From contig NC_015474.1 of the NCBI RefSeq assembly GCF_000211475.1, positions 310,001-374,000 of the forward strand: a stretch of DNA of 64,000 nucleotides, read 5' to 3'. This stretch comes from Pyrococcus sp. NA2 (GTDB taxonomy: Archaea > Methanobacteriota_B > Thermococci > Thermococcales > Thermococcaceae). The notes under the pieces were generated by a model. The model saw only the letters and a program-made list of their open reading frames with translations, was not told the DNA's origin and did no database searches. The position numbers and the translations under genes are program-made. Of this stretch, positions 55,409 through 57,768 are shown piece by piece (the first letter of the stretch is position 1; every line of letters begins with the position of its first letter).

Positions 55409-56845
55409 ATGAAACGTATAAAAATAATGCTTATTGTTATTGTGTTTATAGTTATGTTAGGAAATCTAGCAAATGCATACCATTATATAAAGAAATCGGA
55501 GAGAGGTCTGATTCTTGAACTCCCAAACCCCGATAGTGTTCTTGGAAGGAACATGCTTGCAAGCTTCCTTGCTCCTAAGTACAAGTATTATATTCAGGTT
55601 CAACTTCTCACTCCCGAAGGATTTAGAACAATCTACAGGGGAACATCACGTGGTAGCATTCTAATCCCATCTTTTGAGCTCTTCTATCTCAAATCTGAGT
55701 TGAAAGATGTTAATCCAGGAGTCCTCATCGATGTATGGATAGTGAACCCCGATACGGGGGAGTCTTATGAGGTTGGAACTTTCAGTGCAACGGTAACTGA
55801 AGATGCAGTTAAAGGTGTACAGAAACTCAAACTAAATGTGTCAAGGAAAAACCTTGTCAGACTACCCAAATCCTCCTTTAATAGAAAAGAAAGTCCCATA
55901 ACACCTAAGAGAGGATTTTTTGCAGGTTATCGCTGGAGAACAAAAAAGGAATATTTAACTGGGCAAATGTATCTACCAATTCTCATCCTCGATAATCGCA
56001 TAGGAAAGGCAACCATTGCAGGAGCCTACAAAGTTGAAGCTATTAGTAGTTCATATTCTTCTTCGGGAGTTGCCCTTGGGTTTTCAACAACAGTAATAAG
56101 AGGGTCAAGAATTAGTAGTAAAAGCGAGGTTGACATTGAGAAGGGATTGGCTTCTGGAGAGATACGGATAGAGCTGGAAAGAGGGAATGAGTTCATCAAG
56201 ACGATAATTGATGGGGAAGTGAAGAACGTTAAACCGGGACAGATTGGAGTTATAATGATTGAGGGGATTCCATATATTGCTCTCCAGGTTCTTCAAAAGT
56301 GCTATGTTGATGAGTTTAGACATGAATATTGCTTTGATACCGATGAGGAAAGAGTCTTGATAACAGTAACTGACATTAAAAGAGAATATAACTCCCAGGA
56401 AGATGTATATTTCGTGAAAACTATCTCTTACGTAGATCCTCCAAGAAGTATCTACCCCGTAGATAAAATGGATGAGCTTATCAACGATAACAAGGGTTAC
56501 CTAAGAGTTCTCACAACATTATATGGAGTACAACAAGAGGGAAGATCATTTTACATTGAAAACTTCATTGATAAGTGGACAACGTATTCTAGCACGTACA
56601 TTCCGATACTTGCCATTGTTGTGGCCTTCCAACCAGAAACATTGCCAGCTTTTTTAGTAGGATTGAGCGCTGTAGGAGGAATTTACATCACAAATGAAGA
56701 GCACGAGCTCGTCTACGGTTCATTTGTCATAAAAGATGAATCACCTAACAAAAAGGCCGTGGTTAAGTACCTTGGATTGAGGTATTCAATCAAGGAAACA
56801 ACGCACTTTACCAAGTTTCCTTTTGCCTATTTAAGGTTTGAATAG
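55409..56845 (+). CDS. Secreted or surface protein of unknown function (478 aa)
   Basis: Residues 1-23 form a signal peptide (KRIKIMLIVIVFIVMLGNLANA, then YHYIKK). The mature part is rich in beta-strand pattern, with a Ser-rich patch (ISSSYSSSGVALGFSTT) near residue 215, two Cys in QKCYVDEFRHEYCFD that may form a disulfide, and a hydrophobic segment near residues 395-428 (YIPILAIVVAF...LVGLSAVGGIYI) that could span the membrane. I recognise no family. Neighbouring intergenic DNA is unusually AT-rich, so recent arrival is possible. Confidence 0.7.
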   Translation: MKRIKIMLIVIVFIVMLGNLANAYHYIKKSERGLILELPNPDSVLGRNMLASFLAPKYKYYIQVQLLTPEGFRTIYRGTSRGSILIPSFELFYLKSELKDVNPGVLIDVWIVNPDTGESYEVGTFSATVTEDAVKGVQKLKLNVSRKNLVRLPKSSFNRKESPITPKRGFFAGYRWRTKKEYLTGQMYLPILILDNRIGKATIAGAYKVEAISSSYSSSGVALGFSTTVIRGSRISSKSEVDIEKGLASGEIRIELERGNEFIKTIIDGEVKNVKPGQIGVIMIEGIPYIALQVLQKCYVDEFRHEYCFDTDEERVLITVTDIKREYNSQEDVYFVKTISYVDPPRSIYPVDKMDELINDNKGYLRVLTTLYGVQQEGRSFYIENFIDKWTTYSSTYIPILAIVVAFQPETLPAFLVGLSAVGGIYITNEEHELVYGSFVIKDESPNKKAVVKYLGLRYSIKETTHFTKFPFAYLRFE

Positions 56846-56888
56846 TTCTCGTTTTCTTAATATTTTTATGACTTCATATGGGGTCACC

Positions 56889-56897
56889 ATTATAAAT
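56889..56897 (+). promoter_or_regulatory. Promoter of the H/ACA guide RNA
   Basis: ATTATAAAT at 56889-56897 is placed so that transcription would start at about 56919-56921, exactly at the first base of the GC-rich RNA stem. Confidence 0.6.
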
Positions 56898-56918
56898 GAT
56901 GGTTCCTTATTTTTATAT

Positions 56919-57134
56919 GCCCCCGCAAGCGAGGGCTTGGCCGATCTTAATGAGGCCAGGTGCGAAGCGGGGGCTACAGCCCGGCCTCAGCGAGGTCCCC
57001 TCGGGAGGTGCCTTCCGCGTCACGGAGTGCCGTGACCGGGGGTAACCCTGGCCGGGCACAGGCCCGTCTGGGTTAGCCCGCCCAATTTTGCCGAGGGCTT
57101 AAATGAGGGCGGGTGTTACGGACGGGCCACATAT
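56919..57134 (+). ncRNA. H/ACA guide RNA with three hairpin units
   Basis: A GC-rich island in an AT-rich gap folds into three consecutive H/ACA units. Unit 1: stem 56919-56926 with 56967-56974, upper stem 56936-56942 with 56954-56960 closed by a GA/UGA K-loop, ACA at 56976-56978. Unit 2: stem 56979-56986 with 57050-57057, upper helix starting at 56997/57042, ACA at 57058-57060. Unit 3: stem 57061-57068 with 57121-57128, upper stem 57077-57083 with 57107-57113, ACA at 57129-57131. In all three, 15 bases separate the upper stem from ACA, the known rule for pseudouridine guides. Targets should be rRNA uridines. Similar triple guides are known in Pyrococcus and Archaeoglobus. Confidence 0.85.
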
Positions 57135-57153
57135 AAAGGTCAAGGTGGTCAAG

Positions 57154-57768
57154 ATGATCCGTTTTGTTTTGGATACAAGCATCTTCGTTAATCCAGACGT
57201 AAGAAGGAAATTTGGGGAGACCCCTACAGAAGCCATGAAAACATTCCTAAATTATGCAGAGAAACTATTTGGAAAGGTTGAATTCTACATGCCTCCAGGA
57301 ATATATAGGGAATTAATGCACTTCGTCGAAGAAGAGGAGGTCTCTCCAGACATAGAACTTTACATAATAAAGAAGCCTCCAAACGTTCATGATATAAAGA
57401 TTCCAGCCTTCGTCGTTTATGAGCTAATAGAAGATATCAGGAGAAGAGTGGACAAGGGGCTTAGGGTGGCAGAAAAAGCTGTTAGAGAAAGCGTAATAGA
57501 TACAGAGAACGTTGACAAAATAATTCAGAAGCTTAGAAGAAATTACAGAAAAGCCCTCAGAGAGGGAATCTTGGACAGTAAGGAAGATTTTGAACTCATA
57601 CTTCTGGCAAAGGAATTGGATGGAGTGATAGTTTCAGCTGATGTTGGAATATTAACTTGGGCTGAGAAGATGGGAATAAAATGGGTTGATGCATTTAAAT
57701 TTAAAGAAGTTCTTGATGAGTTGGTTGAGAAGCTTGAGAGAAGTGAAAGTGAAAAGGAAAGAGAATGA
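57154..57768 (+). CDS. HARP, protein-only RNase P homologue (PIN family)
   Basis: The 204-residue protein belongs to the family first called 'RNA ligase partner' and now known as HARP, a small protein-only RNase P with a PIN-like nuclease fold. The metal-binding Asp pattern is seen in RFVLDTSIFVNP (Asp7) and GVIVSADVGILTWAEKMG near the C-terminus; the helical insertion (RRVDKGLRVAEKAV to KALREGILDSKEDFE) drives oligomerisation in the family. I start it at ATG 57154 after AAGGTGG; an extension to 57103 runs through the H/ACA RNA. Archaea that carry it also have RNA-based RNase P, as here (rnp1 at 4082). Confidence 0.88.
   Translation: MIRFVLDTSIFVNPDVRRKFGETPTEAMKTFLNYAEKLFGKVEFYMPPGIYRELMHFVEEEEVSPDIELYIIKKPPNVHDIKIPAFVVYELIEDIRRRVDKGLRVAEKAVRESVIDTENVDKIIQKLRRNYRKALREGILDSKEDFELILLAKELDGVIVSADVGILTWAEKMGIKWVDAFKFKEVLDELVEKLERSESEKERE

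Follow-up and report, generated by a model that had tools for sequence, protein, structure and literature searches.

The three-unit HgcG guide RNA of Pyrococcus sp. NA2 and the structure of its middle H/ACA unit

An HgcG locus and its anatomy

We analysed a 64,000-nucleotide stretch of the Pyrococcus sp. NA2 genome (contig NC_015474.1, positions 310,001 to 374,000 of the forward strand; hereafter the window, in whose coordinates all positions are given), and focus here on an AT-rich gap between a gene at 55409-56845 and a gene at 57154-57768. An island within this gap, with a GC fraction of 0.6-0.7 against 0.31-0.41 in its flanks, had been described in an earlier note, made from the letters alone, as three tandem H/ACA guide units in one RNA. 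We find, with a probability of roughly 97%, that 56919-57131 on the plus strand is the NA2 copy of HgcG (RF00064), also named Pab40, Pf7 and Tko1, and that it consists of three tandem H/ACA hairpins. The RF00064 match, the covarying helices, the mapped 5' end in P. abyssi and the pocket fits of units 1 and 3, all given below, bear the three-unit description out. This RNA is already known and its three stems have been published for Pf7, and the novelty of the locus is low.

The covariance-model search that had been proposed for the island gave 293.6 bits with RF00064 (gathering score 77), covering model positions 1-276 of 276 and window positions 56862-57136, and this was the only Rfam match over the whole window. 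Positions 1-57 of the model are promoter DNA upstream of the RNA. Of 94 Thermococcaceae genomes, 88 carry HgcG as a single-copy orthologue, and none of the 74 near-complete ones among them lacks it; weaker second matches all fall below the RF00064 cut-off. A candidate second copy in NA2 (L021, G000:C1:1177991-1178212, 21.1 bits) was rejected, being HgcE/Pab105, another H/ACA guide, with 139.8 bits. Weak relatives of the locus occur in three further genomes of the class, outside the Thermococcaceae.

The window RNA is the same gene as HgcG/Pab40 of P. abyssi, Pf7 of P. furiosus and Tko1 of T. kodakarensis, with a full-length match to RF00064 and the same hairpins, pockets and promoter position; it is ~91% identical to Pab40 over 213 nucleotides, with no difference of substance. 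HgcF/Pab35 (RF00058) and HgcE/Pab105 (RF00060) are likewise multi-unit Pyrococcus H/ACA guides, with three and two motifs, respectively (PMC4652768), but they are other genes with other pockets, and the window locus scores far under their cut-offs (19.1 and 29.2 bits).

A TATA box, TTATAAAT (56890-56897, plus strand), lies ~25 bases upstream of 56919, and a TATA-like motif recurs at a like distance in nearly all of 50 aligned loci. The earlier note had placed this box to start transcription exactly on the first base of the first stem, and had named small-RNA sequencing as a check. Published RNA sequencing in P. abyssi maps the Pab40 transcript to 382,389-622, its 5' end coinciding with the opening base of the first H/ACA motif (PMC4652768). 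We transferred this end through genome G004, whose HgcG match has the published Pab40 coordinates (382332-382604), and found that position 382,389 (L023:1558) aligns exactly to 56919, so that both the proposed start and the TATA box are right. The proposed end of the span, 57134, has to be moved, since the last ACA ends at 57131.

Each unit begins with a lower stem of 7-9 pairs, which opens into a two-sided internal loop; an upper stem follows, topped by a kink-turn (K-turn) or K-loop, and the unit closes with an ACA. Unit 1 (56919-56978) pairs 56919-56926 with 56967-56974 in its lower stem and 56935-56942 with 56954-56961 in its upper stem, with pockets at 56927-56934 and 56962-56966, a K-loop at 56943-56953 that has the predicted GA/UGA, and the ACA at 56976-56978. 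In unit 2 (56979-57060) the lower stem is 56979-56986/57050-57057, the pockets are 56987-56997 and 57043-57049, and the upper stem, 56998-57004/57036-57042, leads into a K-turn formed by GA at 57005-57006 with GA at 57034-57035, then an apical stem, 57013-57017/57023-57027; its ACA is at 57058-57060. Unit 3 (57061-57131) has lower and upper stems at 57062-57068/57121-57127 and 57076-57083/57107-57114, pockets at 57069-57075 and 57115-57120, and an ACA at 57129-57131. All of these elements are on the plus strand, and the pocket coordinates in the earlier note were right to within a base or two.

All three units follow the archaeal H/ACA pattern of stem, internal loop and stem, then an ANA 14-16 nucleotides from the upper stem, with covarying stems. 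The constant 15-base spacing claimed for the three is exact for unit 2, and is 14 or 15 in units 1 and 3, depending on whether the closing G-U pair is included. As claimed, no gap separates units 1 and 2: the unit 2 stem begins at 56979, right behind the first ACA. Between units 2 and 3 there is no more than one base. This arrangement of the units holds across Pyrococcus, whereas a short linker separates units 2 and 3 in most other Thermococcaceae.

Pairing statistics were taken over 48 distinct Thermococcaceae sequences and invariance counts over 50. In the K-turn of unit 2 the A-G pair is invariant and the G-A pair is kept in 41 of the 50; in unit 3 the A-G pair is kept in 49 and the first G-A in 35, the window having A-A in place of the latter. 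The apical stem-loop of unit 2 (57013-57027, UUCCGCGU..CGGAG) hardly varies across the 50 sequences, in contrast to the apical regions of units 1 and 3.

The helices are conserved with covariation, as had been anticipated. Across those of units 2 and 3, 97.3% of cells are paired and 14 pairs are changed on both sides, which none of 500 shuffles reached; sliding the partner by 1-3 columns, as a control, left 1-4 doubly changed pairs. The ninth pair of the unit 2 lower stem varies between U-A, A-U and C-G, and is U-U in Pyrococcus. Because the main alignment misplaces a gap in the 5' stem of unit 1, covariation there was counted on a separate MAFFT alignment, in which 7 of the 8 upper-stem pairs are doubly changed and the lower stem is always paired.

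Proposed ribosomal RNA targets of the three units

In archaeal H/ACA ribonucleoproteins (RNPs), L7Ae binds the K-turns, Cbf5-Nop10 contacts the stems and the ACA, and Gar1 serves turnover; the target uridine is placed in the Cbf5 active site. Each HgcG hairpin would take L7Ae at its K-turn or K-loop and Cbf5 at its 3' ACA and would pair, through its internal loop, with ribosomal RNA (rRNA) on both sides of a target uridine, which the RNP with Nop10 and Gar1 would convert to pseudouridine (Psi).

We scored the pockets at each uridine of the NA2 16S and 23S rRNAs. The top rank was 23S 2615 for unit 1 (7 + 4 pairs) and 23S 2043 for unit 3 (6 + 5 pairs), and none of 300 shuffled pocket pairs matched either score. 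Subtracting 27 from these positions gives Psi2588 and Psi2016 of P. abyssi, the second of which corresponds to E. coli 1915 in helix 69, and the same offset puts Psi2585 and Psi2603 on uridines too. One report describes Pab40 guiding U2588 in vitro (PMC6138745), and another describes Psi2016 being made with Pab40 in vitro (PMC2584109). Furthermore, T. kodakarensis lacking cbf5, nop10 or gar1 loses the Psi equivalent to the unit 1 target (PMC6138745). We infer that, in strain NA2, the Psi2588 equivalent in 23S rRNA is the work of unit 1, and the Psi2016 equivalent in helix 69 that of unit 3. Haloferax HP2 and Archaeoglobus Afu4 have been tied to the same helix-69 uridine (PMC2584109).

For unit 2 the top rank was 23S 2705, with 4 + 5 pairs, or 4 + 6 with the Thermococcus pockets. 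By alignment this is E. coli 23S U2586, in the peptidyl-transferase centre, which we take to be Haloarcula 2621 by standard numbering. Haloarcula has Psi2621, and Haloferax HP1 has been proposed to target it as unit 2 would (PMC2584109). The pocket motifs GGUC and AACCC are invariant in the 50 sequences, and the target GGGUUUAGACC is identical in 11 of the 11 Thermococcaceae genomes where it was found; GAAC or GAUC takes its place in two genomes from other class families, neither of which yielded this unit 2. Unit 2 has the same architecture as its neighbours, and its pockets and their fit make the E. coli U2586 equivalent its most likely target.

Several points count against an RNA with three working guides. 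The pairing of the unit 2 pockets is matched by 23% of shuffled pockets, or by 3% for the Thermococcus pockets. The GA stem reaches 10 pairs in units 1 and 3, if the closing G-U and two purine pairs are counted, and comprises 9 pairs plus a C-A or C-U mismatch in unit 2, where productive P. abyssi folds have 10 pairs in 14 of 15 cases (PMC4652768). Modification at the best unit 2 target is reported to be absent in P. abyssi (PMC2584109). Moreover, the transcript and modification data come from species other than strain NA2. The suggestion that each unit can guide one or two pseudouridines is backed for units 1 and 3 only, by the reported Pab40 sites; at the best target of unit 2 no modification was found in P. 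abyssi. Given this missing modification and the GA stem of 9 pairs, unit 2 may be either active or inactive.

The strongest alternative, to which we give slightly less than even odds, is that unit 2, a true H/ACA hairpin, takes up the proteins and base-pairs with the peptidyl-transferase centre yet makes no pseudouridine in Pyrococcus, being an rRNA-binding chaperone or an inactive relic. Its GA stem, outside the published rule, and the lack of Psi at the P. abyssi target agree with this, as does the GCGAGG that its 5' pocket has in common with unit 1, as after a duplication. However, a relic would not keep its pockets, ACA and K-turn A-G pair invariant in 50 sequences, and, by standard numbering, the equivalent base is a Psi in Haloarcula.

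Fold and origin of the middle unit

The fold that we favour for unit 2 differs from the one that Rfam draws. Both the RF00064 consensus and the window sequence, when folded to minimum energy, form two small hairpins within the unit 2 lower stem, in place of an H/ACA hairpin. The stems and ACA boxes described in the earlier note are present to within a few bases, though the H/ACA fold of unit 2 is not the one of minimum energy in the window and is backed by comparison across species. The inner hairpins of the Rfam middle unit are paired in 81.7% and 73.8% of cells with zero double changes; they are broken outside Pyrococcus, and their central pairs are absent in 41 of the 48 sequences. In contrast, the H/ACA upper stem (56998-57004 with 57036-57042) is paired in 98.8% of cells and has 4 of its 7 pairs changed on both sides. 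Because this stem covaries while the Rfam hairpins break outside Pyrococcus, unit 2 is, on comparative grounds, an H/ACA hairpin by structure. We therefore rejected the Rfam middle-domain fold for the family: by the same comparison it fits Pyrococcus only, the H/ACA hairpin fits the family better, and the RF00064 entry could be corrected.

These counts also bear on the idea that guiding is confined to units 1 and 3, with the middle domain serving as a structural spacer in the Rfam branched fold, two small hairpins in a long stem. The literature is divided here, since Pf7 was published with three stems, each able to guide modification (PMC2584109), and a 2015 reclassification counts only two Pab40 motifs, Pab40.1 and Pab40.2 (PMC4652768). 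This count and the branched shape of both the Rfam consensus and the minimum-energy fold favour a spacer, but the failure of the inner hairpins outside Pyrococcus, the covarying H/ACA upper stem and the invariant pockets and ACA of unit 2 make it improbable.

In Thermococcus, units 1 and 2 have GCGAGG(A/U)CCCCG in common across the pocket and upper stem, and this suggests that one of them arose from the other. Through this similarity, the unit 2 element AGCGAGGU, which is invariant, also complements the 23S segment beside the unit 1 target, near Psi2585: it is an 8-base complement of ACCUCGCU, starting four bases downstream of the Psi2585 uridine. The orphan Psi2585 of P. abyssi (2589 in T. 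kodakarensis) needs Cbf5, Nop10, Gar1, L7Ae and an RNA yet to be identified (PMC6138745), and unit 2 might be thought to be that RNA, in which case the preference of the Pyrococcus transcript for a non-H/ACA fold could explain negative in-vitro tests. We regard this as very unlikely: assembled P. abyssi small RNPs are reported not to make Psi2585, the 3' guide of unit 2 fits poorly, and the complementarity of AGCGAGGU may simply follow from the resemblance between units 1 and 2.

With a covariance model built from unit 2 only, we searched 17 genomes of the class and obtained no credible counterpart outside the Thermococcaceae, the best match being a short one with E = 0.36. The locus in class family f2 (G095, G097) has, by eye, a different middle hairpin. 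On these grounds unit 2 looks like a Thermococcaceae element within the class. The diverged relatives L074, L075 and L076, from other families of the class, retain the unit 1 GCGAGGAC pocket; by eye, the middle hairpin is different in L074 and L075, and none is clear in L076.

Finally, although GC-rich DNA folds readily and dinucleotide shuffles alone reach -100 kcal/mol, the idea that the stems and ACA triplets of the island arose by chance is refuted by its folding energy (-130.4 kcal/mol, against -100.2 +/- 4.8 for the shuffles; z = -6.4), the 293.6-bit family match, the presence of the RNA in every near-complete family genome, the covariation and the published P. abyssi transcript, and we give it practically no weight.

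Neighbouring genes and implications

The gene at 57154-57768 (plus strand), which lies outside the RNA, encodes a PIN-domain 'RNA ligase partner' of the HARP family (protein-only RNase P; TIGR03875; PF08745 PIN_5). It starts 22 bases past the guide RNA, which leaves no room for a separate promoter. The HARP gene adjoins the RNA, with its start at most ~25 bases from the last ACA, in 8 of 8 Pyrococcus loci, NA2 included, and in none of the non-Pyrococcus Thermococcaceae loci among those examined. In P. abyssi the mapped guide transcript stops a single base short of the HARP start codon, so the guide RNA and the HARP gene may be on a shared transcript in Pyrococcus. The 478-amino-acid protein encoded upstream (55409-56845) had no Pfam or NCBIfam match.

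The locus serves mainly as a positive control, in which a known non-coding RNA and its correct anatomy were recovered by a reader of raw sequence. Its further value is modest: the middle unit gains a better-supported structure, a small disagreement in the literature becomes directly testable, and the invariant pockets of unit 2 point to a peptidyl-transferase-centre uridine that is reported to be unmodified in P. abyssi.
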